From positions 620,001 through 684,000 of the forward strand of contig NZ_QFFF01000001.1 in the NCBI RefSeq assembly GCF_003129465.1: 64,000 nucleotides of DNA, in the 5' to 3' direction. Shown piece after piece: positions 23,342-39,411 of this stretch (its first letter is position 1; every line of letters begins with the position of its first letter). This DNA is from Sphingosinicella humi. Lineage in GTDB: Bacteria; Pseudomonadota; Alphaproteobacteria; Sphingomonadales; Sphingomonadaceae. The position numbers were made by a program, and so were the translations under genes. The notes under the pieces are model-generated. The model ran no database searches and was not told where the DNA came from. It saw only the letters and a program-made list of their open reading frames with translations.

Positions 23342-24526
23342 ATGGAACTCACGCAAGACAACAAGAAGCTCCTCGCGGGCGGAACGGCCATAGCGCTCGT
23401 CGCAGCCATTGGCGGAATCGTAATCGGTCAATCGATGTCGCCCTCTCAGCCGGACCAGACAGCCGCTGCCGAAGCGGGCGAAGAAGGCGAGGAAGAGGGT
23501 CACGGCCGCGAAGGCTTCGTCGAGATGACGCCGACGCGGCTCCAGTCCAGCGGCATCCGCACGACTGAGGTGGAGGCAGGGTCGCTCGCGTCCGAAATCA
23601 TCGCGCAGGCGACTGTGGCCGCGCCGCCGGAAGGTGAAGCGGCGCTCACTGCGCGCGCCGACGGTGCCGTCGTGCGGATAAACAAGCGCCTCGGCGACCC
23701 AGTCAAGGCCGGAGAAACGGTAGCGCTGATAGAAAGCCGCGACGCCGCGTCATTTGTCGCCGAACGAAGCGCGGCGGCGGCCCGGGCGCAGGCTGCCCGC
23801 GCCGCTTATGCCCGAGAAAAGCGACTGTTCGAAGCCAAGATCACGGCTCGGCAGGATTTGGAAGCGGCTCAAGCCGCGTTGGCTGAAGCCGAGGCTGAGC
23901 TCAGGCGCACGCAGGCCGCGACGGCGGCGGCGAACGTCACCGGGAACGGCCGCTATCTCGCCGTCACCAGCCTCATCAGCGGCCGCATCACCGAGGTCAG
24001 CACTCAGCTCGGCGCATATGTGCTGGCGGGAGCAGAGCTGTTCCACGTCGCCAATCCGAACCGGATACAGATCGAAGCATCGGTCCCCTCCGTCGATGCC
24101 CAGCGGATCCGACCCGGCGATCCGGCCATCATCGAGCTGCCCGGCGGCGGCTCTGTCGACGCCGTTGTGCGTTCGGCGACCCCGTCGCTCAATCCGGAAA
24201 GCAGAGCCGCGACCCTGGTGCTCGCGCCTTCGGGAACGCCGGCCGGCCTGACCCAGGGCCAGGCCGTCCGCGTCCGCATCATGCCGCGCGGGGCGCCCAC
24301 GGATGGGCGGATCGTCCTGCCGGAAGAAGCGGTGCAGTCGGTAGAAGGCCGCGACGTGGTCTTCGTGCGGGTCAAAGGCGGATTCCAGGCGGTGCCGGTC
24401 ACCGTCGGATCAAGAAGCGGCGGCCGCATCGAAATCCTGGAAGGGCTGAAGCCCGGTCTTCAGGTCGTGACCCAGGGGGCGTTCGTTCTCAAGTCGCAGC
24501 TCGGCGCCAGCGAGGCCGGCCATTAA
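23342..24526 (+). CDS. czcB: CzcB periplasmic adaptor (membrane fusion protein)
   Basis: The 394-aa product has one N-terminal membrane helix (AIALVAAIGGIVIG), an acidic His-containing stretch (EEGEEEGHGREG), a lipoyl half-motif (GAVVRINKRLGDPVKAGETV), a coiled-coil hairpin rich in Ala/Glu/Arg (residues about 135-195), and a beta-barrel region. It links CzcA to CzcC. It has an AAGGA site 12 bases after the czcC stop. Confidence 0.93.
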   Translation: MELTQDNKKLLAGGTAIALVAAIGGIVIGQSMSPSQPDQTAAAEAGEEGEEEGHGREGFVEMTPTRLQSSGIRTTEVEAGSLASEIIAQATVAAPPEGEAALTARADGAVVRINKRLGDPVKAGETVALIESRDAASFVAERSAAAARAQAARAAYAREKRLFEAKITARQDLEAAQAALAEAEAELRRTQAATAAANVTGNGRYLAVTSLISGRITEVSTQLGAYVLAGAELFHVANPNRIQIEASVPSVDAQRIRPGDPAIIELPGGGSVDAVVRSATPSLNPESRAATLVLAPSGTPAGLTQGQAVRVRIMPRGAPTDGRIVLPEEAVQSVEGRDVVFVRVKGGFQAVPVTVGSRSGGRIEILEGLKPGLQVVTQGAFVLKSQLGASEAGH

Positions 24527-24592
24527 GCGCCCGCGCCCCTTCTTCCATTTTCGAGCCGCCCCTCGTGCGCGCGGCCACAGGACAGCTACACC

Positions 24593-27500
24593 ATGATAGA
24601 CCGCATTCTCGATACCGCCGTCCGCTTCCGCTGGGCGGTGGTCGCCGTCACCCTGATTGTCGCCGCCTATGGCGCATTCCAACTCTTCCGGCTTCCGATC
24701 GACGCCGTTCCGGACATCACCAACAAGCAGGTGCAGGTTAACACGGCCGCGCCCGCCTTCGGCCCGCTCGATATGGAACGGCTCGTCACCTTTCCGATCG
24801 AGACTGCCCTGGCGGGGATTCCAGGCCTCGACCATACGCGTTCCATCTCCCGAAATGGCTTCAGCCAAGTGACGGCCGTCTTCGACGAGGACGTCGACAT
24901 CTACTTCGCCCGCCAGCAGGTGTCGGAGCGCCTCACCCAGGCCGGCGAGAGCCTGCCGGAAGGCGCCGAACCCCAAATGGGGCCGGTATCGACCGGCCTC
25001 GGAGAAGTGCTGATGTGGACGGTCAGCTATGCGCCGACCGCCACCGCCGAGTCTCCAAAGATCGCCGGCCGACCGGGCTTCCAACCCGACGGATCCTATC
25101 TGACACCCGACGGCGACCTGCTTACGACGGAGGTCGCGAAGCTCGCCTATCTCCGCACTATTCAGGATTGGATAGTGCGACCCCAGCTCCGCACCGTCGA
25201 AGGCGTGGCCGGGGTGGACTCGATTGGCGGCTATGAAAAGCAGTTCGTAGTCCAGCCCGACCCTGGCCGCCTCGCCGGCTACGGCATTTCCTTCTCGGAG
25301 CTGGCGGATGCCCTCGAACGCGCGAACATATCGGTCGGCGCGAACTTCATCGAACGGGGCGGCGAGGCGTTCCTCGTCAGGGCCGATGCCCGCATCCGGC
25401 ATATCGACGAGATCGCGCGCACCACGGTCGCGGTGCGCAACGGTGTTCCAGTCACGGTCGGCGACGTCGCGAATGTCACCATCGGTGGCGACCTGCGCAC
25501 CGGCGCCGCGTCAATCGATGGTAAAGAGACCGTGATTGGGACTGCGCTGATGCTGGCGGGCGGCAACAGCCGTATCGTCGCCGAGGACGTCGCGGAGCGG
25601 CTCGAGGAGGTGGCGGGATCGCTGCCGCCAGGTATTTCGGTCACGCCCGTCTACAATCGCTCAACCCTCGTCGAAGCCACCATCGCGACAGTCGAGAAGA
25701 ATCTGGTCGAAGGCGCGCTGTTGGTCATCGCGGCGCTTTTCTGGCTGCTCGGCAATATCAGGGCGGCGATCATCGCCGCGCTCGTCATCCCGCTGTCGTT
25801 CCTGATGATGGCGATCGGCATGAACGAATATGGCGTGTCGGGCAATTTGATGAGCCTCGGCGCGCTCGATTTCGGTCTGATCGTCGATGGCTCGATCATT
25901 ATCATCGAGAACTGTTTGAGACGCCTTGCGGAGCGACAACATCTGGAAGGCCGCGTCCTCAACCTTCCCGAGCGGCTGCACGAGGTGTTCGAGGCCTCCA
26001 AGGAGATGGTGCGGCCGACGATCTACGGCCAGGCGATCATCCTGCTCGTCTTCGCGCCGCTCCTCACCTTCACCGGCGTCGAGGGCAAGATGTTCACGCC
26101 GATGGCGATCACGGTGATGCTGGCGCTGGTCGGCGCGTTCATCCTGTCGCTGACCTTCGTGCCCGCCATGGTCGCTATCCTCATTCGCGGCAAGGTCGCG
26201 GAGAAGGAAGTGAAGGCGATTGGCTGGGTCAAGGAACGCTACGAGCCGGTGCTCCGCCGCGTCGTGGCCCGGCCGTGGCCGTGGATCGGCGCCGGCGTCG
26301 GCACCTTCGTCGTTGCCGCGCTCATCTTCACCACGCTCGGACGCGAGTTCATCCCTCAGCTTAACGAGGGCGATCTGACGGTGCAGGCAATCCGCGTCCC
26401 GTCGACATCGCTCGAACAGTCGCTGGAAATGCAGCTCCAGGTGGAGCGGGCCATCTCCTCGTTGCCCGAGGTCGCCTACATCTACGCCAAGACGGGCACG
26501 GCCGAAGTCGCCACCGATCCGATGCCACAGAACATTTCGGACGCTTTCATCATTCTCAAACCCAAGGAGCAATGGCCGGAGGGGATCGACACCAAGGAAG
26601 AGGTCGTCGAACGTATCGAGGCAAAAATGGCTGGCCTGGTCGGCAATGCCTACGAGGTAAGCCAGCCCATCGAAATGCGCTTCAATGAGCTGATCGCTGG
26701 CGTGCGAGGCGACATCGCGGTCAAGGTGTTCGGCGATGATCTGGACGAGCTGGAGCGGATCGCCGGGCAAATTGCCAGTGCGATGAGCGGGGTGGAAGGC
26801 ACGGCCGACCTCAGGACCGAGCAGACGGCGGGATTCCCCACGCTCGACGTCCAGTTCGATCGGGATGCGATCTCCCGATATGGCCTGTCCATCGAGGATG
26901 TGACCGACACCGTTGCCGCCGCACTTGGCGGGCGGGAAGCTGGCCTCGTCTTCGAGGGGGACCGGCGCTTCGATATCGTCGTGAGGCTGGCGAACGCCAC
27001 CCGCGATGATCTCGGCGCGATCGGCGCCTTGCCAGTGATGCTGCCCGAAACAGGCGCCGCAGGCCCCCGTCAATCCGTCCCGCTGCGCGAGCTCGCCAGC
27101 TTCCAATTCTCCGAAGGCATCAACCAGGTCAGCAGGGAGAACGGCCAGCGCCGCGTGGTGGTCCAAGCCAATGTGCGCGGGCGAGACCTTGGCTCCTACG
27201 TCTCGGAAGCCCAAGCCCGCGTCGCGGAGCAAGTCGACCTGCCGCCTGGCGTCTTCATCGAGTGGGGAGGCCAGTTCGAGAACCTGCAAGCCGCCTCGGC
27301 CCGCCTGGCGGTCGTAATCCCCGCCGTGTTCATCCTGATCTTCGGGATCCTCTTCGTCGCGCTCAGAGGCGTGATGCCCGCGCTCGCGGTCTATTCGGCG
27401 GTTCCGCTCGGCCTTGCCGGCGGGGTCTTCGGTCTAGCGATATCGGGCCTCGCCTTCTCGATATCGGCGGCGGTCGGCTTCATCGTCCTTTCAGGCGTCA

Positions 27501-27853
27501 CGGTCCTAAACGGACTCGTCGTCATGACGAGCATTCGCCAGCGGATCGACGCCGGAAATCCAGTGGATGAAGCGGTGATCGATGGAATGATGGAGCGCGT
27601 CCGCGCGGTCCTCATCACCGGCATCGTGCCCGCCATCGGCTTTATCCCGATGGCGATCGCGACAGGTCGAGGCGCGGAGGTGCAAAAGCCCCTCGCGATC
27701 GTCGTGATCTCCGGCCTCATCGTCGCGACCTTGCTGACGCTGTTCGTGCTGCCCGCGATTAGCCACCTGCTGCTGCGCGTGCGCGGCAAGAAGCACGAGA
27801 CGGGCGAATATGAGGACGTCGACAGGTTCGGCAGTCCGTTGCCGGCGAAGTGA
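24593..27853 (+). CDS. czcA: CzcA heavy-metal efflux RND transporter
   Basis: The 1086-aa protein has the 12-helix RND plan with two large periplasmic loops. Membrane helix 4 carries ALDFGLIVDGSIIIIEN, giving the proton-relay aspartates (D426, D432) of the heavy-metal (HME) group of RND pumps. The N-terminal signature QVQVNTAAPAFGPLDMERLV and the ending around VLPAISHLLLRV are intact. It exports divalent cations such as Zn, Cd or Co across the envelope with CzcB and CzcC. Long antisense frames over this gene are codon-bias shadows. Confidence 0.95.
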   Translation: MIDRILDTAVRFRWAVVAVTLIVAAYGAFQLFRLPIDAVPDITNKQVQVNTAAPAFGPLDMERLVTFPIETALAGIPGLDHTRSISRNGFSQVTAVFDEDVDIYFARQQVSERLTQAGESLPEGAEPQMGPVSTGLGEVLMWTVSYAPTATAESPKIAGRPGFQPDGSYLTPDGDLLTTEVAKLAYLRTIQDWIVRPQLRTVEGVAGVDSIGGYEKQFVVQPDPGRLAGYGISFSELADALERANISVGANFIERGGEAFLVRADARIRHIDEIARTTVAVRNGVPVTVGDVANVTIGGDLRTGAASIDGKETVIGTALMLAGGNSRIVAEDVAERLEEVAGSLPPGISVTPVYNRSTLVEATIATVEKNLVEGALLVIAALFWLLGNIRAAIIAALVIPLSFLMMAIGMNEYGVSGNLMSLGALDFGLIVDGSIIIIENCLRRLAERQHLEGRVLNLPERLHEVFEASKEMVRPTIYGQAIILLVFAPLLTFTGVEGKMFTPMAITVMLALVGAFILSLTFVPAMVAILIRGKVAEKEVKAIGWVKERYEPVLRRVVARPWPWIGAGVGTFVVAALIFTTLGREFIPQLNEGDLTVQAIRVPSTSLEQSLEMQLQVERAISSLPEVAYIYAKTGTAEVATDPMPQNISDAFIILKPKEQWPEGIDTKEEVVERIEAKMAGLVGNAYEVSQPIEMRFNELIAGVRGDIAVKVFGDDLDELERIAGQIASAMSGVEGTADLRTEQTAGFPTLDVQFDRDAISRYGLSIEDVTDTVAAALGGREAGLVFEGDRRFDIVVRLANATRDDLGAIGALPVMLPETGAAGPRQSVPLRELASFQFSEGINQVSRENGQRRVVVQANVRGRDLGSYVSEAQARVAEQVDLPPGVFIEWGGQFENLQAASARLAVVIPAVFILIFGILFVALRGVMPALAVYSAVPLGLAGGVFGLAISGLAFSISAAVGFIVLSGVTVLNGLVVMTSIRQRIDAGNPVDEAVIDGMMERVRAVLITGIVPAIGFIPMAIATGRGAEVQKPLAIVVISGLIVATLLTLFVLPAISHLLLRVRGKKHETGEYEDVDRFGSPLPAK

Positions 27854-27881
27854 TCATGCAGATCAAGAGAGGAGGCAGCCG

Positions 27882-28253
27882 ATGCTGACGATAGAACAAA
27901 GACCCGACGGCATCCTTCACATCGTCGCCGATGGCCAACTCACGACCGAAGAATATGTGGATTTCGTGCCGCGCTTCGAGCGTCTGGCGGACCAACCGAG
28001 ACCGGTGCTGATCGAGCTCGGTCCCGGCTTCACCGGCTGGACGCTGGGTGCACTGTGGCGAGACCTCCAGTTCGATGTCGAGCACCGCAAGCAGTTCGGC
28101 CGAATAGCCATCGTCGGCGACAAAGAATGGGAGAAGTGGGGCACTGAGGCGTCCGCGCCTCTCTTCCCGGCCGAAATGCGCTTCTTCGAGAAAGCTGGGG
28201 CCTCAGATGCCGAGGCCTGGCTCCACAACGCGCCACGGGAGGAGAGGCCGTGA
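27882..28253 (+). CDS. SpoIIAA-like (STAS-related) protein
   Basis: The 123-aa product begins MLTIEQRPDGILHIVADGQL and matches the SpoIIAA-like/DUF3478 fold, with GRIAIVGDKEWEKWG and PAEMRFFEKAGASDAEAWL as the typical C-terminal segments. Members often sit near transporters; one proposed role is in lipid or transport regulation, not established. An AGGAGG site precedes the ATG. It overlaps the next CDF gene (GTGA), indicating coupled translation. Confidence 0.75.
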   Translation: MLTIEQRPDGILHIVADGQLTTEEYVDFVPRFERLADQPRPVLIELGPGFTGWTLGALWRDLQFDVEHRKQFGRIAIVGDKEWEKWGTEASAPLFPAEMRFFEKAGASDAEAWLHNAPREERP

Positions 28254-28855
28254 GCGAAGGGCATTTCGATCTCGGGAGCCAAGACAAACGCAAGATCCTC
28301 TGGATCGTGCTCGCCCTAAACGTCGCCATTGCGGCGGGCTTCTTCGCGACTGGGCTATTGGGCGACTCCAGCGCACTCATCGCCAACGGCCTCGACAACA
28401 GCTCGGACGCGATTGTCTATGCCATCAGCCTGATGGCCCTCTCCCGGCCTCCACGATGGAAGCGGATCGCCGCCCGCTTCTCCGGTATCATGCTGCTCGC
28501 GTTCGCCATCGGTGTCGTCATCGACGCCGGCCGCCGCTTTCTCACCGGCTCCGATCCCCTCGGCATCACTATGATGATCATGGCGCTCGTCGCCGCTGCC
28601 GTGAACCTCCTTTCCCTCTTTCTGCTAAAGCGGCTGAAGGGGAAGGACGTAAACCTTCGCGCCGCGACGACGTTCAGCTTCAACGACTTCATCTCGAACG
28701 GGGGGATATTGATCGGCGGCGCTCTGGTGCTGTGGACCGGACAGAACTGGCCCGACCTCATCGTCGGGATCGGCGTCGCCGCGATCGCGATTTACGGCGG
28801 GATCGATATCCTGCGGGACGCCCACCATGAGGCGGTAAAGGCAAAGGAGAGCTGA
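28250..28855 (+). CDS. short cation diffusion facilitator
   Basis: The 201-aa product starts at GTG inside the end of the SpoIIAA-like gene. Helices include NGLDNSSDAIVYAISLMAL (CDF helix 2 metal site) and FSFNDFISNGGILIGGALVL (helix 5). Like the protein at 20290 it lacks the cytosolic C-terminal domain. It is followed immediately by the full-length CDF, so the two may act in sequence or as partners. Confidence 0.8.
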   Translation: MSEGHFDLGSQDKRKILWIVLALNVAIAAGFFATGLLGDSSALIANGLDNSSDAIVYAISLMALSRPPRWKRIAARFSGIMLLAFAIGVVIDAGRRFLTGSDPLGITMMIMALVAAAVNLLSLFLLKRLKGKDVNLRAATTFSFNDFISNGGILIGGALVLWTGQNWPDLIVGIGVAAIAIYGGIDILRDAHHEAVKAKES

Positions 28856-28858
28856 GAC

Positions 28859-29773
28859 ATGGGCGCAGGACATGATCATGGCGAACGCAACATGAGTGAT
28901 GGCCGCCTCGTCGGCGCGGTCGTGGTCAACCTCCTCCTGACAGTCGCCCAGATCGTGGGCGGCGCGGTCTCGGGGTCGCTCGCGCTGATCGCGGACGCTC
29001 TTCACAACCTCAACGATGCCGCTTCGCTGGGCCTCGCGCTATTTGCACGCCGCGTAGGGCGACGGCCGGCGGACAAGCTGATGACGTTCGGATACGGCCG
29101 CGCCGAAATCGTCGCGGCGCTCATCAACCTTACGACCCTGGTCATCGTGGGCCTTTATCTTCTCGTCGAGGCAATCAACCGGTTCCTGGACCCGCAGCCG
29201 GTCGGCGGCTGGATCGTTGTGATCGTCGCCGGCATCGCGTTGGTGATCGACATCATCACAGCCCTGCTCGTCTATGCGGGATCGAAACACAGCCTCAACA
29301 TCAAGGCCGCCTTTCTGCACAACGTTTCCGATGCGCTGGCTTCGGTGGGCGTGATCATCGCGGGAACGCTCATTCTGCTCTACGACCTCTACATCGCCGA
29401 CCTCGTGATGACGGTGCTCATCGCCAGCTACGTGCTCTACCAAGGCTTCTCGCTGCTGCCGCAGACGATCAAGCTTTTGATGGGCGCGGTTCCCGACGAC
29501 GTCGAGTTCGATGCGATCGTGAAGGCATTGCGCGAGACCGATGGCGTCAAGGATTTGCACCATGTGCACATTTGGAGCCTCGACGAGCATGAGCGTGCGC
29601 TTGAGGCGCACCTCGTGCCCGCCGTATCCTCGCTGGAAGCGTTCGAGCAGGTGAAGGCCGACGCGCGTGGCATGCTGCGACAGCGCTTCTCTATCGGGCA
29701 CGCGACCCTCGAAGCCTGTCTCGACGAGCAGGGTGGCGATCACGCCGCCGCCCCACATAGTCATCCGAAATAG
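28859..29773 (+). CDS. czcD: CzcD-like cation diffusion facilitator
   Basis: The 304-aa product has six membrane helices, HNLND in helix 2 and HNVSDALAS in helix 5 (the two halves of the transport metal site), and a full cytosolic C-terminal domain (VKDLHHVHIWSLDEHE) ending in a His-rich tail. An N-terminal HDHGERN adds ligands. It exports Zn/Co/Cd to the periplasm, where CzcCBA can take over. It ends the czc block three bases after the preceding gene. Confidence 0.92.
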   Translation: MGAGHDHGERNMSDGRLVGAVVVNLLLTVAQIVGGAVSGSLALIADALHNLNDAASLGLALFARRVGRRPADKLMTFGYGRAEIVAALINLTTLVIVGLYLLVEAINRFLDPQPVGGWIVVIVAGIALVIDIITALLVYAGSKHSLNIKAAFLHNVSDALASVGVIIAGTLILLYDLYIADLVMTVLIASYVLYQGFSLLPQTIKLLMGAVPDDVEFDAIVKALRETDGVKDLHHVHIWSLDEHERALEAHLVPAVSSLEAFEQVKADARGMLRQRFSIGHATLEACLDEQGGDHAAAPHSHPK

Positions 29774-30279: not shown

Positions 30280-30366
30280 ATGATCAACGAGATTATCGAA
30301 CTGCTCGTAGAGCTGCCTCCCAATCGGTCGGCGCAAGCCTTTGTCGTGCCGTCCCTCAGATGCTGA
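30280..30366 (+). CDS. 28-aa ORF with strong ribosome binding site (possible leader peptide)
   Basis: MINEIIELLVELPPNRSAQA begins this 28-residue frame, which has a GGAGG site at ideal spacing. It ends at 30366, overlapping the start region of the next gene in another frame. It could be a leader peptide controlling that gene, or the original N terminus of it cut off by a frameshift. Confidence 0.35.
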   Translation: MINEIIELLVELPPNRSAQAFVVPSLRC

Positions 30367-31465
30367 AGAAGACCAACTGAACGGAACTCCCGCCCGCCGA
30401 CAGGTGGTGAAGACACTCCGACGATATTCGTTGGAGAAGGAAATGGCTGAAGCCTTTGAAGAGCAGCTGGTAGGGGTGCCGCCGCATCTCTGGCCACAGA
30501 CGCTTGAGCGCGCAGCTATCATCGCCAAGTACCTGAAAATAGCGAACCCGACCGTGGCAGATGTCGACGAACATGCCCGTAAGCTAGGCATTCGCCGTCG
30601 ATATTTTTACGTGCTCGTCCGCATCTTTCGGGAACGTCGCGCCGCCCGGACGATCGACATCGATAAGCAATACAAACGGGCGGTCATCGACCCGGAGGCT
30701 TCCGCCACTGTCGAAGAAGTCATTGCCGAACTTGGACCCGATGCCAAGCTCGCTCACGTCAAAGAAGAAGTTCAGCGGCGATGCCGCGACAGGGGAATCA
30801 CCTTGCCATCATCCACGACGATCAGAACGCGCCTTAACGCGGCCCGTGTCGTGAATCCGGGGACGAATTTCCTTCCAGACCTGATTGTCGATCATTGCGG
30901 TCTCAAGCTTCAGGCAACTGACCCTAATGGGGTGGTTGAAACGGCCGTCCTCACCGCGCTGATCCACACGCCCACCGGCCGGGTTATGGGTCACTATCTC
31001 GGCCTCGGATCCCCCGGCGCAACCGCTATGATCAGCGCCATAAACAATGCCTTGAGCCAACCCGCTGGTGCGGGGTGTCGCGCACGACTGCCGGTCGAAC
31101 TCAGGTTCCATGCAGGCCAAGAGCCCATCTGGGATACCATCATCGATGCGCTTCAACAGGGAGGCATCAAGCCGCTTCCTCGAGAAATATCAGACCGCTC
31201 CGCTGGACGGAGCATCACTCGAGTCTTGGGCTTGAAACTAGGGCGAATCCCGTTCGCCCCGAGAGCGACCTTCAAGGCGCCACAATCGGTTCGGGGATTT
31301 GGCACGGCGGTTTCACTCGACCAAGTCAGGCTTACGGTCGCTGAAATTCTCGACCAGCGCAACGCGTCGCTGCCCTCCAACGACGTGGCGTCGCTCCGCG
31401 ACCTCTTGGGCAGGAATGCCGCCCGGCAGCTGGAGAAATCATTGGCTGGTCTCCCTAACGGCTAG
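30341..31465 (+). CDS. TniA/TnsB-like protein lacking catalytic residues (first of a convergent pair)
   Basis: The 374-aa product has an N-terminal helical region with ARKLGIRRRYFYVLVRIF (HTH-like), a second HTH-like segment (LPSSTTIRTRLNAARV), and an RNase-H-like core comparable to the transposase TniA at 33943. First Asp is present (LIVDH, D184). The second Asp is replaced by His (H257 in ELRFHAGQE) and the Glu by Thr (T293 in SITRVLG), still with 35 residues between the two positions as in DD(35)E enzymes. It therefore looks catalytically dead. The TTG at 30341 gives N-terminal length equal to the paralogue at 31462; an ATG at 30443 with GGAGAAGG is an alternative start. Function unknown; regulation or target choice for the neighbouring transposon is a guess. 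Confidence 0.7.
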   Translation: MSCRPSDAEEDQLNGTPARRQVVKTLRRYSLEKEMAEAFEEQLVGVPPHLWPQTLERAAIIAKYLKIANPTVADVDEHARKLGIRRRYFYVLVRIFRERRAARTIDIDKQYKRAVIDPEASATVEEVIAELGPDAKLAHVKEEVQRRCRDRGITLPSSTTIRTRLNAARVVNPGTNFLPDLIVDHCGLKLQATDPNGVVETAVLTALIHTPTGRVMGHYLGLGSPGATAMISAINNALSQPAGAGCRARLPVELRFHAGQEPIWDTIIDALQQGGIKPLPREISDRSAGRSITRVLGLKLGRIPFAPRATFKAPQSVRGFGTAVSLDQVRLTVAEILDQRNASLPSNDVASLRDLLGRNAARQLEKSLAGLPNG

Positions 31466-32694
31466 GTGGGCAACACAACCCGGAATAAATTCCGCATTTC
31501 CGCCCCCATGCGCAGCAGCCGGGGATTGAGATTCTTCCACCTGGTGAGGTTCCCCGCTCGCTGGTCAGCATCGCCGCCTTCTTGTGCCCCTTCACGAGCG
31601 CGAACGATCTCGTAGTTCCAGTCATCAACCGCACCCGCGAGCAAGGTGCGGGCCTGAACCGCGTCAACAGGGGGCGGGAGTCCCTCACGTCGTTTGATCT
31701 GAGGCGACGCCGTCAAACGCGGCATCAGTTCATATCCGCCAAATTTCGCTCCCAGAAGCCGCAACAGTCTTTGCCCGTGGCGGCGCTCACCTTGGGCGCT
31801 GAAGCTACCCAAGATGCCGTTCGTCGCCGCGTCGCGCGCCCATCGTTCAGCTGTATCTTCCAAGCTGTCTGGCACCACCCAATGAAGCTCCTCCAGCACC
31901 TCTGCAATCGGGAAGGAGCCGGTGGCTATCGTTCCATGTCGAGCCTCAATGTCCTCTATCGCGTGCTCAAGGCCCGCCCCGGGGGTCTTCGAAAGGGTAA
32001 GGCCGAGCCCCAGAACAAGTCGCGTTTCTGTGTCCACGACAAAGGTGCCAACGACAAAGCTGGACCCTTCGGCCCCTTCGACCGGAAGGGAGAGCGCCGC
32101 TTGGTCGACAAGAAAGGACCGTCCAAACGTGCGCTCGGCCTTGTCCGCCGCAGGCTCCGGTGCGCTCGCCGGCGAACGCAGAGCATTTAACCGTCGCCTG
32201 ATCGCCGCGTCCGAGGGTGCTGCAGAGCCCTTTCGCTTACATGCCTGAATGACAGATGCTCGAACTTCGCTCAGAGAAGCTGTCGGATGATCTGCCAGTA
32301 TGTCGAAGATAGCGTTATCGGCGACATCGCCCAATCCCTCGGCCGCAGAAGGCGGCCGCCGCGTCCGATAGCCAGGAGCGAGGCCTGCCACCGGACCGTG
32401 TCGACGCAGCTTATCCAAAAGGCGATAAAAATTGCGCTGTTGCATCCCGAGATCAGCGGCGGCCTTCTGAGCATCCCCTGCTCGAGGTGCGTCGATCCGA
32501 AGATAGCGGTCGATCACCGCTAAGCGTGAAAGAACCGCTTCCTGCTTCTCGCGCGGCAGCGTGGAAAGCGCCCTGAGCTCTGACGACGCAGAGACACCCT
32601 CCAAGAGGTGGTCACCAACTAAATCAATCCTGGGATCATCCGACACGCGTGCCCTCCTAGGCGCGCTGATAACGGCGCCGGAGGAGATCGACAA
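31462..32694 (-). CDS. TniA/TnsB-like protein lacking the catalytic Glu (second of the pair)
   Basis: The 410-aa product resembles the convergent gene: YLRI/YLKI at residue 64-67, FY at residues 89-90 within an HTH-like segment (AADLGMQQRNFYRLLDKL), then SAAPSDAAIRRRLNALRS and an RNase-H-like core. The first Asp (D197, FLVDQAAL) and a possible second Asp (D276, VVPDSLED) are present, but the Glu position holds Leu (L311, QRLLRLLG). The stops of the two genes overlap by four bases. It is divergent from the tnsA unit and shares its intergenic operator. It is probably a non-catalytic accessory protein; no named family was recognised. Confidence 0.68.
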   Translation of the reverse strand: MSISSGAVISAPRRARVSDDPRIDLVGDHLLEGVSASSELRALSTLPREKQEAVLSRLAVIDRYLRIDAPRAGDAQKAAADLGMQQRNFYRLLDKLRRHGPVAGLAPGYRTRRPPSAAEGLGDVADNAIFDILADHPTASLSEVRASVIQACKRKGSAAPSDAAIRRRLNALRSPASAPEPAADKAERTFGRSFLVDQAALSLPVEGAEGSSFVVGTFVVDTETRLVLGLGLTLSKTPGAGLEHAIEDIEARHGTIATGSFPIAEVLEELHWVVPDSLEDTAERWARDAATNGILGSFSAQGERRHGQRLLRLLGAKFGGYELMPRLTASPQIKRREGLPPPVDAVQARTLLAGAVDDWNYEIVRAREGAQEGGDADQRAGNLTRWKNLNPRLLRMGAEMRNLFRVVLPT

Positions 32695-32727: not shown

Positions 32728-32784
32728 TTGACATAAGCCTGCACCGACCTCATGTTCATTGCACAACAGCCCGAACATGAGGTC
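32728..32784 (+). promoter_or_regulatory. tns operon promoter with 12-bp inverted-repeat operator
   Basis: TTGACA (32728-32733) and CATGTT (32751-32756) are 17 bp apart, a good sigma-70-type promoter. GACCTCATGTTC (32746-32757) overlaps the -10 element and its exact inverse GAACATGAGGTC lies at 32773-32784, 15 bp away. A dimeric repressor bound here would block the tns genes and possibly the divergent gene at 31462. The inner arm also carries the GAGGT ribosome binding site of the next ORF. Confidence 0.65.
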
Positions 32785-32787
32785 ACA

Positions 32788-33003
32788 ATGTCGTCCAACC
32801 TGCCCCCAGCCACCTGCGATGAAAAAGCACCGCAGGATGACGAGAATCCGCCGCACGAGCCCGTGCAGGAAATAGTAGGGGACGTGCCAGCCGGCGTCCC
32901 GGCATGGATCGGCTCTATGGCCTCCTACCGTCGGGGAACATGGCGTCGTCGTTCGTCTCGGCCGTGGATGTCTTCTCGTCAGCGCTCAGCGGTGGCCGCG
33001 TGA
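32788..33003 (+). CDS. 71-aa ORF upstream of and coupled to tnsA
   Basis: The frame begins MSSNLPPATCDEKAPQDDEN, is acidic and Pro-rich in its first 40 residues and Arg-rich at the end. It has a GAGGT site five bases before the ATG. Its TGA overlaps the tnsA ATG as TGATG. From about 32904 the tnsA frame also has coding-like codon use, so the tail may be an accidental overlap or the two frames may derive from one longer protein. No family recognised. Confidence 0.45.
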   Translation: MSSNLPPATCDEKAPQDDENPPHEPVQEIVGDVPAGVPAWIGSMASYRRGTWRRRSSRPWMSSRQRSAVAA

Positions 33004-33833
33004 TGGAAGCCGACGACACGATCGAGCGGCTCGTGAGGGCGCCTTTGGCGGCATTCGCGGATCCGAGGCCCGGCATTATGCGCCAGCTTATCGACCCAGC
33101 GGTGACGCCTGATCGGACTCGCCTGCGGCGCCTCGATCAATTGCCGGAGGCTGGCGACGAACTCGTCAGCATGGGCGACATGTTCGTCACCAAACATGGC
33201 GGCTCGATCCGGACCTTCACCGGCAACCTTGCCCACGAGAATGGTTGGTGGCCGTCCTTCAAGCGCCGCCGCCTCCAATATTGGGAGGGGATGACGCAGC
33301 GCGCCTACCTGCTGCGGTGCGAGGTCGATCCCGATGTCGACTGGGCACAAAGCGAGGCCCGTCGCTTCGAATTCCCTCTCGGCGGCCGCAGGCACCGCTA
33401 CACATGCGACGTCGAGGTGCGGAAAACCGATGGCTCCACGGAGATCGTCGAGCTCAAGCGCGACGAACGTGATCTCGACGACGATGATTATCGCCTGACC
33501 CTTGCTGGCGTGGCCGAAATCTGTCGACGGTGCGGGTGGACGTTCAAGATCGTCCTCGCCGGCGAAATCTTCACCGGTCGTCATCACCGGCAGAACGTCG
33601 AACTCTTCCAGTCCCGGCGCTTCGCCCGCGTCGGCCCCGAACATCTCCGGCGCCTCGAAGACTTCGCATACCGCCATGGTCAGGAAAGCACCTATGGCGA
33701 GCTCTCGGAGGTTCTCGAACCGGACTTCGCTCCTGCAGGCAAAGCCGTCCTTCAGGCTCTGCTCGTGCGGCGGCGGGTGAACATCGATCTGACCCAGCTT
33801 CTCTACGAAGAGACGCCTGTGCAGATCATCTAA
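33003..33833 (+). CDS. tnsA: TnsA-like transposon endonuclease
   Basis: The 276-aa product has the restriction-endonuclease-like TnsA core: E95 (QYWEGMTQRAY), D136 (RYTCDVEV) and ExK at E150-K152 (EIVELKRDE), then a C-terminal winged-helix-like region. In Tn7, TnsA cuts the 5' ends of the element while TnsB cuts the 3' ends, allowing cut-and-paste movement. The ATG at 33003 gives a protein close in length to Tn7 TnsA (273 aa); an ATG at 32904 in the same frame would add 33 residues. It is the first large gene of a four-gene tns operon. Confidence 0.87.
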   Translation: MEADDTIERLVRAPLAAFADPRPGIMRQLIDPAVTPDRTRLRRLDQLPEAGDELVSMGDMFVTKHGGSIRTFTGNLAHENGWWPSFKRRRLQYWEGMTQRAYLLRCEVDPDVDWAQSEARRFEFPLGGRRHRYTCDVEVRKTDGSTEIVELKRDERDLDDDDYRLTLAGVAEICRRCGWTFKIVLAGEIFTGRHHRQNVELFQSRRFARVGPEHLRRLEDFAYRHGQESTYGELSEVLEPDFAPAGKAVLQALLVRRRVNIDLTQLLYEETPVQII

Positions 33834-33942: not shown

Positions 33943-36135
33943 ATGGCACACTATAACTATCCGCGAAACGCCATCATCGAGATCGATGGGGCTCCATACA
34001 AATATTTGGGCGCGACCATTCCTGGTCGTGTCCACCTTATGCATCTCCATTCCGGCGAGCCGTATCGCATCACCGGTCCGACCGGCCAGCTCGAACTCCT
34101 GACGCCTGAGGCCTACGACGAGCTGCTGCTCGATGGTCGCCTGATCGTTAAGGAGCCGGAAAGCGCCATTCTGGCTCGGAAGATCGCCTCCGACGCCGAA
34201 TGGGACATGGCCGACTGCGAAGCTCTTGATCCCAACGCTCGCAAAATGCTGGTCCAGTGCCAGATCCTGGATGACCATGGGGTCAAGAACGGCGTGAAGG
34301 CCATCACGATAGGCCTCACCGACCATTGGACCGATGAGCTTCGCCAGAAGTTCGGCGAACATGATAACCCCCACACGATCAAGCGGTGGCGCTCCGAGCG
34401 CGGCGCTATCGGCAATCGCAACGGCCGCGACATGGTCCGGATGTGGGGCAAGGTGCCGCGCGCTCCCTACTCCGACGATGTCGTTGAGGAGACGAAGCAA
34501 AAGGCGGCGCTTCGCTACTACACGTTGCAAACGAGCTACGTCGATGCCCATGCCGAGGTCTCTGACGAGATCCAGGCGATCAACGAAGGCCGGTCAGAAC
34601 AGTATCCGAAGCCCGAACGGCCCTATCGCTGCCCTTCGTATGACACCGTCCGCCGCGCCTGCATCGCGCTTGAATGCGCGGACACGGTCGAAGCCCGCGA
34701 CGGCAAGGAGGGCGTCAAGGCCGACTGGCGCGGCTCTGGAAAACCGCTCACAGCGAGCCGGGCGCTTGAGCTCTGTATCATCGATCACACGCCGCTCTCT
34801 GGCTACTTCGTTGTCGATCCCGAGCGCGAGATGATTGCGGGCCAGCCGTGGTTGTCAGTCATGATCGACGTCCACTCTGACGCCATTCTCGCCCACTTGA
34901 TTTCCTACCTTCCACCGTCGGTCTGGACGGTCGGCGAGCTGCTTCGGCGGGCGAGTCTTCCGAAGCGGCCGCCGCCTTGCTTCATCGAGCGCTACCCTAT
35001 CCTCCGGCGTATTTGCGGAAAGCCCGCCGAGGTCATCGTCGACAATGCGGCGGAATTTCGCAGCCAGGCCTTCGAGGACGCAGCGAAGGCGGCCGGCTTT
35101 GCCGTTCGGCGCTGTCCGATCAAGAAGCCGACCTATCGCGCCATCGGGGAACGGGTTTTCCCCACTCTCCAGCTGAAGATGACAAAGTCAATTCCAGGTG
35201 CAATCAAGCCAATCGCGCTCGCGCGAAAGCTTGGTCACAATCCGGAGAAGGAAGCCCTTGCCACTACCGGGGAGCTGGAGGCATTGGGGAACTACGCGGT
35301 CGCCGAATACCACATCGAGACGCATGAAGGACTGCACGGGCGACAACCCGCCCTCGTCTTCGAAAAGAGCGTCAACAAGCATGGCATAGACCTTATCCAT
35401 GACCTCAGGGGCTTTCAGCTCGAGTGCCTCGATGTCCGTCTCGGAGTGCAGATTTCCAAGTCCGGGGCGCGCCTCTTCAGCCTCCGTTACCAATGCGCTC
35501 GTGCCGTGCCGGCGTTGCTCAACGACCTCGTGCCAGTGGAGCCCCGGCGACAGCGGCGGGACGAGGCGACGGCCACCGTCAAGGTAAAGTTCGACCCGCA
35601 GGACATCTCCGTCATCTACGTCTGGAACCGCGTCACCAAGAAGTATGTGACGCTCCGCTGCGCCGACGAAACCTACGCCGACGGCATGCCGTTGTGGTTC
35701 CACGAGCAGATCCAGCAGGCTGCCCGCGCCGAGGCTGAGGCCTTCAACACCGAGGAAGAACGGCTCGCTGCCCGCGCCAAGCGCATCAAGGCGATCCGCA
35801 ACATCTCGCCCGAGGCAAAACAGCGCGAACGGAAGCTTGTGGCGCGGCTCTACGAGATTCCGCGTCTTCGTCAGATCACCGGCAACCTCGTTCATCTGCA
35901 CACCGACGAACCAGAGGCCGTCTCGCTCGAGGATTTCATCTCTCACGACCTCGCCGCAACCACGATGCTCGACGACGAGATTCTCGCGCCACGCCTTCCC
36001 GTCGCCGAACCTCGCAAGCGCAAGCGCAAGGACCGCGACAGCCGCGATGCAGGCCAACCGCATCAATCGGCGCAGCAGTCCACCCAAACGCCCCAGCGGC
36101 CCCGCACTCGCCGGGTCAGCGGCAGCTATAATTAA
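33943..36135 (+). CDS. tniA: TniA/TnsB-like DDE transposase
   Basis: The 730-aa product has N-terminal DNA-binding regions, an RNase-H-like catalytic core and a C-terminal beta-barrel plus basic tail (EPRKRKRKDRDSRDAG) for contact with the ATPase. The triad is D281 (CIIDHTP), D367 (VIVDNAAEF) and E403 (AIGERVF), giving exactly 35 residues between the last two, the classic DD(35)E. It cuts and joins the 3' ends of the element. The segment RPYRCPSYDTVRRACI resembles the HTH segments of the two inactive relatives upstream. Length is close to Tn7 TnsB (702 aa). Confidence 0.92.
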   Translation: MAHYNYPRNAIIEIDGAPYKYLGATIPGRVHLMHLHSGEPYRITGPTGQLELLTPEAYDELLLDGRLIVKEPESAILARKIASDAEWDMADCEALDPNARKMLVQCQILDDHGVKNGVKAITIGLTDHWTDELRQKFGEHDNPHTIKRWRSERGAIGNRNGRDMVRMWGKVPRAPYSDDVVEETKQKAALRYYTLQTSYVDAHAEVSDEIQAINEGRSEQYPKPERPYRCPSYDTVRRACIALECADTVEARDGKEGVKADWRGSGKPLTASRALELCIIDHTPLSGYFVVDPEREMIAGQPWLSVMIDVHSDAILAHLISYLPPSVWTVGELLRRASLPKRPPPCFIERYPILRRICGKPAEVIVDNAAEFRSQAFEDAAKAAGFAVRRCPIKKPTYRAIGERVFPTLQLKMTKSIPGAIKPIALARKLGHNPEKEALATTGELEALGNYAVAEYHIETHEGLHGRQPALVFEKSVNKHGIDLIHDLRGFQLECLDVRLGVQISKSGARLFSLRYQCARAVPALLNDLVPVEPRRQRRDEATATVKVKFDPQDISVIYVWNRVTKKYVTLRCADETYADGMPLWFHEQIQQAARAEAEAFNTEEERLAARAKRIKAIRNISPEAKQRERKLVARLYEIPRLRQITGNLVHLHTDEPEAVSLEDFISHDLAATTMLDDEILAPRLPVAEPRKRKRKDRDSRDAGQPHQSAQQSTQTPQRPRTRRVSGSYN

Positions 36136-36146
36136 GGATCATCACC

Positions 36147-37118
36147 ATGGCACAAAAATCAAACATCCAGTCCGCTGACACCATCTGCATTGATGACGAG
36201 GAGGGGCGCCCTGAGCGCCCCTCCGACCGGTCCCGCCGGGTCGCCGAAGCGCGGGCGAGTTTCCGGGACATCCTCCTCCCTTATCCTCGTCAGGACGAGC
36301 TTGTAGCGGCCTTGGACGAACTCCGCCTTACGGGCCTGCTCACCAAAGGTAAGCCACAGGGCGGCGTCCGCCTGATCGCCGAGACTGGCTCTGGAAAAAC
36401 GATCGGCGCGGAGCGTTTCAAAACCTATGTCGAAGCCGCCGAGGAGCATGATCCTCGCTCCAAGCCGATCGTCATCGCCACCATCGATGGCAGCGGCACC
36501 ACCAGGTCCATTCCGGCCAGCATCCTCAAGGCTATGGAAGTGCCCCGGCCCGAGCAGGGCACGGAGCCGGTGCTGTGGATGCGGGCAATCGACGCGCTCC
36601 GCCGCTCCGAAACGCAAATCCTGATCATCGACGAGTTCAATCGCGCGGCGCGGCGGCCCACAATGAGCTCGGCAATCGCGACCGCTCTTCGCGACCTCAT
36701 GGACCAGGGCGTTGCGCCGCTTGCGTTCCTCGCGACCGAGGAGGCCCGCGACGTTTTCAGGCGCAGCCCTGATCTTGCAGGCCGCCTCGATGCTCCGGTG
36801 ACAATGAATCCGTTGGACTGGCTGATCGAGGAGGATCGCGACCTCTTTATGGATTTTCTCGCCGGCCTGGACGAGGAGATGGTCGAGCGCGGTATTCTTC
36901 GCGTCAGCTCCGGCCTGGCAGAGCCGGAGTTGGCTCGTCTTCTGTGCGAGGCCTCAAACGGCAATATCCGGCAAATTTCTCACATCGTTGAAACCGCCAT
37001 GGCGGCCGTCGTTCGCCGGGACGATGACGCGATCAGCCGCGACGACCTGTCGGTGGCAGTGGATGAATGGTCCATCCCGAACCAGTGCATCGGCTACAAC
37101 CCGTTCGAGGCGGCCTAA
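36147..37118 (+). CDS. tniB: TniB/TnsC-like AAA+ ATPase
   Basis: The 323-aa product has Walker A LIAETGSGKT (about residues 76-85) and Walker B ILIIDEFNRAAR (about 158-169), with sensor segments downstream. TnsC/TniB ATPases form filaments on DNA, connect the target selector to TniA and give target immunity. It starts 11 bases after tniA and runs into tniQ (two bases apart). Confidence 0.92.
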   Translation: MAQKSNIQSADTICIDDEEGRPERPSDRSRRVAEARASFRDILLPYPRQDELVAALDELRLTGLLTKGKPQGGVRLIAETGSGKTIGAERFKTYVEAAEEHDPRSKPIVIATIDGSGTTRSIPASILKAMEVPRPEQGTEPVLWMRAIDALRRSETQILIIDEFNRAARRPTMSSAIATALRDLMDQGVAPLAFLATEEARDVFRRSPDLAGRLDAPVTMNPLDWLIEEDRDLFMDFLAGLDEEMVERGILRVSSGLAEPELARLLCEASNGNIRQISHIVETAMAAVVRRDDDAISRDDLSVAVDEWSIPNQCIGYNPFEAA

Positions 37119-37119
37119 T

Positions 37120-39000
37120 ATGGGGGTCTATACCAGCATCACCAAAGCGCCCTGGCGTGTCGAGGCTCCCCTCCAGCCCATTGGAGGGGAGTCGCTGGAC
37201 GGCTTCATTGCCCGCGTCGCCGCTGCGAGCTGGATCGATAACGCGCTCACCATCACCAACCTGGCGGGCGTCACCTACGGGCACAAGCCGACACTCGCTA
37301 CGCACGGCTGGGACGGCTTGCCGATACTTGCCGACTGTCTCCAGGTCGATGTGGAAGAACTCCGTTGCCGCTCCTATCCCGCGATCGAGGGCACGGACCG
37401 GCGGCAGTTCTTCGGTGTGGAAGTTGAACGGCGAGACATCGAGACCCGCGTGCGCCGGTTCGCTCCAGCCTCGTTGGCGTTATCACCCCATCATCGCGCC
37501 ATGTGGCAGCTGAGACCTTTCCCATTCTGCTCGGAGACCTGGCAGTATCTCGTCGACCAGTGCCCGCGATGCGGTGCCGTTCAGCGCTGGTATCACGCCA
37601 ATGGCATCGACCGGTGCGATCAATGCGTCGAAGAGCTCTCCCTGGCACCAGCAGAAACTGTTCCGGATGAGGAACGGCCTGCCCTGCGATTTGCGATCGG
37701 GCTGGTTCATGCGGACCCAGCGCTTCGGCAGCGGAGTCTTTTCGAACTTCCGGCCGAATTGCAGGCGCTCGGACCGGCGGCTGCCTTCGAACTCCTGGTG
37801 CGCCTGACGACCTTGGTCGACGGAGAGATGGCCAAGAACCGTGTGGGCACCTTCTCGACTTGGTCGCTCCCCGCAGCAAGGATAACGTCAGCAATAGCGC
37901 GAGCCTGGCCGCTCTTGGCCGGCTGGCCAGGTGCCGTGACCGAGTTCATGGGCGAGCGCATTCAAACGGCGCCAACTCGGCACGTCGACGGCAACGAAGG
38001 ACTGTCGGTCCGCTTCCTGAAGCTCCCGCGAGTGCCTGGCCTTCGCCAAGACGTGGCTGATGCGATCGCTCGCCTGAGGCTGTCCGTCCAACTCGACGGC
38101 CCCGAACAATGTCTTTTCAAGGAACGCACCATGGGCATCAAGGAGGTCGCCGCCGCGCTCGGCCGTGGAACAAAGGAAACCGCTGAAATTCGCCGGCAAG
38201 GTGGGCTGAAAACGATCTTCGCTATCAAGGAGAAGCGGCCCGTGGCTCTCTTCGACGCCGCCGAGGTGCGCTCCATTTCGTCCTTCATCAAGGAACGGCT
38301 AGGCTTCGCTGCCGCCTCTTGGCGCATCGGGATTTCGTATCATGGTGTCGAGCAACTGGTCACCATGCGACTGTTGGCGACCACAGAGGATCGCTACTGC
38401 CAAGTTCGTTATGGTTCTCGTCAGACCACCGAAACCGCGATGGACGACTTCCGTTGTCGCTTGCAGCGCGCAAGTGAAGACATCCCCTGCACGGCCCCGA
38501 TCACGCTTCGGAAGGCAGCCCTGGCAATCGGTGGGCGGCTAAAGCCTTGGGGGCCAATATTTCATGCCCTCCTCACCGGCGGCATTCCGTTTCAGCTGAA
38601 CGATGAAGATGGTCCACTGACGGAACGGATCATCGTTGACCGATCTGCCATTTCGCAGCTTATTGCCCTCGAGTTCGCCGCCTCCGACTATCCCGAGTCG
38701 ACGTTCGAATACTCGATGACGCGCTTCGACGCCGGCGAAACCCTCAACGTCGGGCCTAAGGCATACACTCCCGTGATCAACGCGATCATCGGCAGGTCGG
38801 CCGAGGCGAAGTTCGTCCGCGTCCACGATGTCCTTCAACTCGCAACGACGCACATCAGCGCGCCAGAGATCGGTGCACGGCTCGGCATCAGTTCACGATC
38901 CGCCTTCAACTTGGCTAGCAGAATCGGTGTCACGTTCCTTGGCGAGGCAGGCTGGTGCCGCCGGGATGCCGAGAAGCTCATCTTCGCCGACGCGGCCTGA
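37120..39000 (+). CDS. tniQ: TniQ/TnsD-like target-selection protein
   Basis: The 626-aa product starts with the TniQ domain (LQPIGGESLDGFIARVA) and a zinc-binding group (C137, C148-x2-C151, C166-x2-C169; QCPRCG ... RCDQC). The C-terminal half has two or more HTH-like segments (MGIKEVAAALGRGTKETAEI; ISAPEIGARLGISSRSAF). It is longer than Tn5053 TniQ and Tn7 TnsD, so it probably reads a specific chromosomal site directly. The ATG at 37120 overlaps the end region of tniB; the longer frame from 36988 lies within tniB. Confidence 0.9.
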   Translation: MGVYTSITKAPWRVEAPLQPIGGESLDGFIARVAAASWIDNALTITNLAGVTYGHKPTLATHGWDGLPILADCLQVDVEELRCRSYPAIEGTDRRQFFGVEVERRDIETRVRRFAPASLALSPHHRAMWQLRPFPFCSETWQYLVDQCPRCGAVQRWYHANGIDRCDQCVEELSLAPAETVPDEERPALRFAIGLVHADPALRQRSLFELPAELQALGPAAAFELLVRLTTLVDGEMAKNRVGTFSTWSLPAARITSAIARAWPLLAGWPGAVTEFMGERIQTAPTRHVDGNEGLSVRFLKLPRVPGLRQDVADAIARLRLSVQLDGPEQCLFKERTMGIKEVAAALGRGTKETAEIRRQGGLKTIFAIKEKRPVALFDAAEVRSISSFIKERLGFAAASWRIGISYHGVEQLVTMRLLATTEDRYCQVRYGSRQTTETAMDDFRCRLQRASEDIPCTAPITLRKAALAIGGRLKPWGPIFHALLTGGIPFQLNDEDGPLTERIIVDRSAISQLIALEFAASDYPESTFEYSMTRFDAGETLNVGPKAYTPVINAIIGRSAEAKFVRVHDVLQLATTHISAPEIGARLGISSRSAFNLASRIGVTFLGEAGWCRRDAEKLIFADAA

Positions 39001-39130: not shown

Positions 39131-39240
39131 GCAAACTTCTGCAATCAACCCTGGGGATAGGCGCAAGCTTGTGCATGCTCCCGGATGCAAGTTAGACCAT
39201 CCCCCAGAGGCGCGAGGTGCAATCATATCGACGCGTCACA
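39131..39240 (-). repeat. putative transposon end with TTGC repeats
   Basis: Read on the minus strand from 39240 the sequence begins TGTGACGCG and contains repeated TTGC cores (GATTGCAC, ACTTGCAT, GCTTGCGC, GATTGCAG) spaced 22-32 bp. Tn7-family ends begin TGT and carry an array of TnsB-binding sites. An imperfect inverted repeat CTGGGGAT / ATCCCCCAG also lies here (39150-39208). The array is weak and no matching second end was found, so this is a candidate only. No other gene is visible between 39001 and 39240. Confidence 0.4.
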
Positions 39241-39411
39241 TTCCGCCACTCGCTGCGAAACGTCGTCGGGCTGACCGGAGCGGGTGAGCGCCTGACGCTG
39301 ATGGTCCTGCGCTCCGTCGAGCGCGAGGAGATTTCGGTGACGGTCGCCCATGATCCTGCCCTGCTCGTCACGCGCGTTCATAGGGTCAGATGGACAGAAT
39401 TTGGCCGATGA
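39241..39411 (+). pseudogene. possible truncated chromosomal ORF next to the element end
   Basis: An open frame of 56 codons (FRHSLRNVVGLTGAGERLTL onwards) has strong coding-like third-position GC up to about 39385 but no credible start or ribosome binding site, and no recognisable family. It begins at the putative element end, so it may be the 3' remnant of a gene interrupted by insertion. The following 60 bases up to the TonB-receptor gene hold nothing evident. Confidence 0.3.

Follow-up and report, generated by a model that had tools for sequence, protein, structure and literature searches.

Inactive TnsB-like paralogues form a conserved and exchangeable gene pair beside Tn7-like operons of Sphingomonadaceae

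The closest described relatives of the two proteins reported here, designated X and Y, are the DDE transposases TnsB, TniA, MuA and IstA, with which they have N-terminal helix-turn-helix (HTH) regions and an RNase H fold in common. In contrast to these enzymes, X and Y lack the catalytic Glu, X mostly lacks the first catalytic Asp as well, and both are about half as long, with neither the beta-barrel nor the C-terminal tail. The inhibitor of IS50 is an inactive transposase derivative that serves as a regulator, and the immunity regions of phages comprise a regulator and its cognate sites, which are exchanged as a cassette; X and Y differ from both in being two separate TnsB-descended genes within a Tn7-like element. 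Tn7-like elements are known for swapping their target selectors, whereas here a dead transposase pair is swapped together with the DNA adjoining tnsA. TnsF of Tn6022 is described as a dead tyrosine recombinase that acts as a target selector for comM and is encoded in an operon with a short tniQ (PMC10293859). TnsF resembles the present pair as an inactivated recombinase kept as an accessory part of a Tn7-like transposon, but it has a tyrosine recombinase fold, whereas X and Y are TnsB paralogues located on the opposite side of tnsA and beside a long tniQ. CvkR of the type V-K CAST is a MerR repressor whose motif, a 15-nt inverted repeat, is found in the cas12k and tnsB promoters (PMC9938897). 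It shares with the role proposed below for X and Y that of an element-borne DNA-binding repressor, but is a single protein of the MerR family rather than a pair. The first-pass annotation knew of no Tn7 component of this kind, and inactive TnsB-like paralogues in Tn7-like elements are likewise absent from the titles and abstracts of the literature searched, the scope of which excluded most subscription papers and preprints.

The window is a stretch of 64,000 nucleotides of the Sphingosinicella humi genome. X is encoded on the plus strand by an open reading frame of 374 amino acids (30341–31465, from a TTG at 30341), and Y on the minus strand by one of 410 amino acids (31462–32694, from a TTG at 32694). 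By visual inspection, the likelier starts are an ATG at 30443, behind GGAGAAGGA, for X, and a GTG near 32643, behind AGGAGGG, for Y. The two genes are convergent, with a 4-bp overlap of their stop codons, and Y and tnsA are transcribed divergently, as the first-pass annotation had read the locus. The pair is placed upstream of a single plus-strand operon that consists of tnsA, tnsB, tnsC and tniQ, the gene set by which a Tn7-like element was recognised. TnsA (32904–33833) has a weak match to the Pfam model Tn7_TnsA-like_N and scores 7e-12 with the NCBIfam model TnsA_like, short of its cut-off. The tnsB/tniA gene (33943–36135) encodes a transposase of the active type with the triad D281, D367 and E403, and the tnsC/tniB gene (36147–37118) an ATPase (Pfam TniB, 4e-17). 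The tniQ frame (36988–39000; Pfam TniQ 9e-5, short of its cut-off) probably starts at an ATG around 37120, judging from the translation. Next to X, on the side away from the operon, positions 23342–29773 hold metal-efflux-type genes, CzcB/CzcA- and CzcD-like by eye, that may represent cargo.

Neither X nor Y matched a Pfam or NCBIfam model at cut-off, and the weak Pfam matches were mostly to HTH models. An initial scan of the genome contigs with Y gave no match, and a search within the window's own genome linked Y to X with an E-value of 2e-12. X also matched transposases encoded on plasmids (18 records, best E 3e-6, 21–30% identity); for X and the single-gene form described below, E-values against plasmid transposases are about 1e-6 to 1e-4. 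Profiles were built from 28 Y, 23 X and 35 TnsB sequences (alignments A8, A9 and A10, respectively). The X of L042, L047, L052, L054, L079, L112 and L116, being short, rearranged or cut, was left out of A9; L056, a near-copy of L010, is in none of the three alignments, L127 was added after they were made, and the TnsB tally excludes the split proteins (L010, L056, L083, L113, L114) and duplicates (L078, L085). Profile against profile, X and Y match each other at 4.8e-30 and TnsB at 9e-11 and 1.8e-9, respectively, in line with the kinship to each other and to the TniA core that had been claimed from the window. With the X profile, the solved ShCAST TnsB is retrieved at 5e-7 in a match that begins at the first HTH and extends into the RNase H domain. 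Both alignments to the 753-column TnsB profile end at columns 464–468, just short of the ends of X and Y, and a Mu-transpos_C match was obtained for TnsB only; X and Y are thus without the C-terminal domains of TnsB.

As the first-pass annotation had assigned it, the TnsB triad is D281/D367/E403, the latter two separated by 35 residues; it is invariant in all 35 TnsB sequences. The partners it had proposed in X and Y stood in part. In the hhalign alignments the E403 column is occupied by T293 in X and L311 in Y, and the D281 column by D184 and D197, as predicted; the D367 column aligns with P275 of Y, D276 being one column away, and H257 of X falls in a gapped region. The absence of the catalytic Glu is general: the column is Glu in 35/35 TnsB, 0/28 Y and 0/23 X. 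The first Asp is retained in 27 of the 28 Y proteins, as against 7 of the 23 X proteins.

Structure prediction agrees with the homology. With a shallow input alignment (eight sequences of X and Y), AlphaFold2 produced a model of X (pLDDT 74.5) in which helical HTH regions are followed by strands and helices in the order of an RNase H fold, and a poor model of Y (pLDDT 58.3). The solved structures closest to both are TnsB and MuA; X superimposes on a chain of the TnsABCD transpososome with a Z-score of 12.3 (163 residues, rmsd 3.4), and the best Z-score for Y is 7.5, which is weak taken alone. Judged from profile alignments and predicted models together, X, Y and TnsB are homologues of one another, and X and Y each combine two HTH regions with an RNase H fold. 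In L042 and L054, X appears by eye to be reduced to a doubled first HTH with no RNase H part, which suggests that DNA binding is the retained activity. Omega values of 0.08–0.24 for X and Y in two pairs of elements show at the codon level that the pair is subject to purifying selection; between the near-copies L010 and L056, omega is 0.30 for X, and Y differs at one base only.

A search with TnsB in 397 genomes of the family returned 21 places at E < 1e-70, the window counted, all of which were examined. Sixteen contain both X and Y, L047 has only a rearranged X, L043 and L048 are cut by contig ends, and L041 and L044 lack the pair; in the TnsB tree, the pairless rows L043, L048 and L047 are for these reasons not clean absences. 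Three more distant operons (L058–L060) are also without the pair, and L119, whose TnsB groups with theirs, has it. A search with Y in 296 genomes of the order added ten loci of identical layout in nine further genomes. Three more loci came from named genomes, namely an uncultured Sphingomonas (L079), Sphingopyxis granuli (L080) and a Qipengyuania (L084). With L127, and with L056 counted, Y-bearing loci number 30 and the pair-bearing loci are spread over 16 genus codes. Y is divergent from tnsA, and stands beside it with no other X, Y or tns gene in between, at 30 of 30 loci, sometimes with around 1 kb or a small frame in between. The link of the pair to tns operons in other sphingomonads, which the first-pass annotation had suggested looking for, is therefore present, and its reading of X and Y as a dedicated pair of inactive TnsB/TniA-fold paralogues is supported by the fold, the lost Glu and this distribution. 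Of the outcomes that it had named as refuting, none occurred: the X model has the RNase H fold, the column of the catalytic Glu is never Glu in X or Y, and the distribution follows tns operons. X is present at all 30 loci and convergent beside Y at 28, the exceptions being L051, where both genes are on one strand, and L079, where other genes lie between them. Close convergence within about 110 bp is conserved in 26 of the 28 convergent pairs (269 bp in L052, 1.1 kb in L053), while the exact 4-bp overlap is found in only 6/28.

Complete pairs were seen in the window's own family only, where 21 of 397 genomes have Y matches at 1e-25. In a class sample of 385 genomes, matches outside the family were limited to two long frames of a single genome. 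Viral contigs and phages contained no TnsB relative, and plasmids only distant TnsB. Weak matches at class level occur in long frames of G738, G593 and G615. At L120 (6559–8939; G142, another family of the order), a frame of 300 amino acids, overlapping a same-strand TnsB frame, scores around 1e-11 with both X and Y, and may be either a frame-shifted TnsB or an X/Y-like gene.

X and Y evolve together and apart from the core. Their tree distances correlate at r 0.81 (22 loci), and those among TnsA, TnsB, TnsC and TniQ at 0.67–0.88, compared with -0.18 to 0.17 (all p >= 0.078) between X or Y and any core protein, although the X and Y trees contain long branches. For TnsB against X and Y the values are 0.17 and 0.01, and 0.09 and 0.02 in a repeat analysis. 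Plain identities give the same picture (X–Y 0.71, core 0.57–0.77, between groups -0.15 to 0.14), as do the 17 loci with all six proteins (0.64, 0.62–0.76 and -0.28 to 0.14, respectively); the second X of L046 was excluded from the distances. Individual pairs of elements display the exchange in both directions. L110 and L111, in one genome, are separated by a TnsB distance of 0.48 and a Y distance of 2.94, and have core DNA in common (69–74%) but not X/Y DNA. Conversely, L010 and L055 have a Y distance of 0.28 against 3.85 for TnsC and 5.06 for TniQ, with no core DNA in common and a single common block of 3.2 kb that comprises X, Y, two small neighbouring genes and the intergenic DNA as far as the L055 tnsA start, which lies about 190 bp ahead of the listed tnsA frame of L010. 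The small genes that accompany this cassette (L010, 9309–10105; L055, 13273–14069) look nuclease-like and excalibur-domain-like by eye. L079 and L080 have core DNA, but not X/Y DNA, in common with L084. L010 and L113 likewise have pieces from tnsA to tniQ in common but not X/Y DNA, despite which their X and Y fall in one cluster of the trees. In the control pair L045/L084 the DNA match is unbroken across X/Y and core. That core-sharing pairs have no intergenic DNA in common carries little weight, because non-coding DNA fades fast. Taken together, tree and DNA comparisons show that X and Y co-evolve independently of the core proteins, and that the pair and the Y–tnsA intergenic DNA move between cores as one cassette.

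Within the window, the Y–tnsA intergenic region contains a perfect 12-bp inverted repeat, GACCTCATGTTC-15-GAACATGAGGTC (32746–32784), a candidate operator that was equalled in 0 of 60 shuffles. At 0–1 mismatch its half-site occurs in the window only as these two copies; with 2 mismatches there are 16 matches as against 4.3 in shuffles, so that the half-site alone is not special. Neither a sigma-70-like promoter nor the end motif TGATTGCA described below was found in this region of the window. Among the 27 Y–tnsA regions covered (that of L008 is too short), an inverted repeat is clearly beyond chance in two, the window and L115, and more weakly so in L046 and L084; the repeat as a general trait of these regions is thus unsupported. 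The intergenic DNA of L010 and L055 contains an island of 78 bp at 93.6% identity, compared with 73–75% in the coding parts, that carries TTCTAMATGCCAAYGC twice as a direct repeat, 44 bp apart. Exact copies of TTCTAMATGCCAAYGC were found only in L010, L055 and the near-copy L056 among ten stretches scanned, and a copy with 2 mismatches in the Y–tnsA region of L113, the X and Y of which cluster with those of L010 and L055; the island rests mainly on the one pair of elements, L010/L055. The inverted repeat of the window occupies the corresponding place between Y and tnsA.

We propose, with a probability of about 0.5, that X and Y are a co-evolving, heteromeric dead pair derived from TnsB that constitutes, together with the Y–tnsA DNA, an exchangeable control cassette acting on the tnsA promoter in an immunity-like manner. 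X and Y would form a heteromer, bind sites or repeats in the divergent Y–tnsA promoter region, and thereby restrain the tnsA-B-C-tniQ operon; in this way an element already in the genome would also silence an incoming one of its own X/Y type, much like the immunity region of a phage. The pair tracks neither TnsB, TnsC nor TniQ, which makes action via DNA sites likelier than a tight fit to core proteins, and the nearest sites that travel with it are those of the tnsA promoter region. In the Tn7 of E. coli, repression of tnsAB from the tnsA-side end is attributed to TnsB itself. One end of the present element lies beside tniQ; if the other lies beyond X, tnsA has no adjacent end, and a TnsB-derived pair could take over this repression. 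In a broader form, to which we give slightly less than an even chance, a TnsB-like gene that is single in some elements would have become a two-gene heteromeric dead transposase which, with its own DNA sites beside tnsA, serves as an interchangeable identity cassette and decides, irrespective of the core, to which immunity group or target class an element belongs. It would be a new class of Tn7-like component. Should X and Y repress the operon or define immunity groups, they would show that a transposon can possess an identity module distinct from the machinery that cuts; transposon immunity would then be testable through cassette swaps, and the cassette could offer a natural means of controlling integration tools of the Tn7-like kind.

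Among the roles that the first-pass annotation had listed for the pair (DNA-binding selectors of targets or ends, regulators, immunity factors), regulation or immunity is favoured over selection, with two points in tension. A plain repressor does not account for the retention of the first Asp by nearly all Y proteins (27 of 28), and exchange of a selector module would equally produce the independence of X–Y from the core. The main rival, which we consider unlikely, is indeed a pair of target selectors: the dead transposases would bind target DNA and pass it to TniQ or TnsC, so that exchange of the pair changes the target. Modular exchange and X–Y co-evolution are compatible with this, and with TnsF there is already one dead recombinase that acts as a selector (PMC10293859). 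The same source, however, ties extra selectors to a short TniQ (PMC10293859), a protein that is long here: the TniQ frame of the window has 670 amino acids (~627 from the likelier start), and 606–689 amino acids are found in nearly all other pair-bearing elements with tniQ in view, L049 and L112 being longer and only L119 shorter, with a frame of 315 amino acids that would suit a selector. Moreover, X and Y do not track TniQ or TnsC (r -0.18 to 0.05), the proteins that a selector must touch, and near-identical elements in G083 and G411 occupy two different sites. Neither protein gave a Pfam TniQ or TnsE match at E-values up to 1, their nearest relatives being TnsB.

It is quite unlikely that the pair has a structural part in the transpososome or binds the ends, filling the non-catalytic places of the TnsB tetramer. 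Their fold and HTH pair are those of TnsB, but they lack its C-terminal domains, and fit to TnsB and to the ends would be needed, whereas co-evolution with TnsB is missing and similar pairs adjoin cores with very distant TnsC and TniQ. The pair is also absent from a subclade with TnsB 41–46% identical to that of the window. End binding should track TnsB and its sites too, which speaks against immunity or exclusion by occupation of transposon ends or incoming elements with no control of the tnsA promoter; fast-diverging, exchangeable pairs are what type-specific exclusion predicts, and genome G899 harbours two elements with close cores and different X/Y, but no second genome with two complete pairs was encountered, and this alternative is quite unlikely as well. 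That X and Y are decaying remnants of a transposase, as their lost catalytic residues and C-terminus might suggest, is refuted by the open frames, the omega of 0.08–0.24, the one layout in 16 genus codes and the co-evolution of the pair.

Elements with a single gene or none place the pair in context. Three of the 21 family genomes that match Y at 1e-25 have a lone gene instead of a pair (L128, L129 and L130), with similar scores to X and to Y. In all three it is transcribed divergently from its closest tns neighbour, and by eye it seems to lack the Glu. L128 has tnsA, tnsB, tnsC and tniQ; in L129 and L130, near-copies of one another at 90% identity, the recognised tns frames are limited to TnsB- and TnsC-like ones. 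Possibly, the single gene represents the state before duplication into X and Y. The pairless subclade mentioned above comprises L041/L085, L081, L082 and L083 (Novosphingobium, Actirhodobacter); as it manages without the pair, the pair is not essential. Upstream of tnsA in L085, in the place of the pair, there are by eye a serine-recombinase-like gene and two ParB-like genes.

Two TGATTGCA repeats, 78 bp apart on the minus strand (39140–39225), are candidate TnsB sites and mark a candidate tniQ-side end of the element near 39230. A similar two-repeat layout is found where the DNA common to the G083 and G411 elements ends. The second end was not found by repeat search, by the G083/G411 comparison, by synteny of the TonB flank or through a fragment resembling a PDZ protease. 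The latter, a frame at 39232–39408 that begins right at the transposon end, is like the C-terminus of a PDZ serine protease, and a search near the element gave no N-terminal counterpart. The elements of G083 and G411, with X 10 and Y 1 amino acids apart, end in different DNA, by eye at the 3′ end of a hisE-like gene and upstream of a proB-like gene, respectively. A correspondence of X/Y type to attachment site was rejected by eye, since flanks past the tniQ end differ and no common target gene per type was seen; L045 and L084 are an exception with similar flanks, but they also have core and X/Y in common. A tRNA-Thr(CGT) lies within ~350 bp past tniQ in L052, L110 and L113, and a tRNA-Gly in L050. 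The former was discarded as an X/Y-linked target because the three loci differ in X/Y type.

In four elements TnsB is divided into two overlapping frames (L010, 13585–15983; L056, 7583–9981; L113, 3961–6389; L114, 4115–6569), the first part being 492 amino acids long in L010, L056 and L113 and 383 in L114, and possibly represents a natural split transposase.
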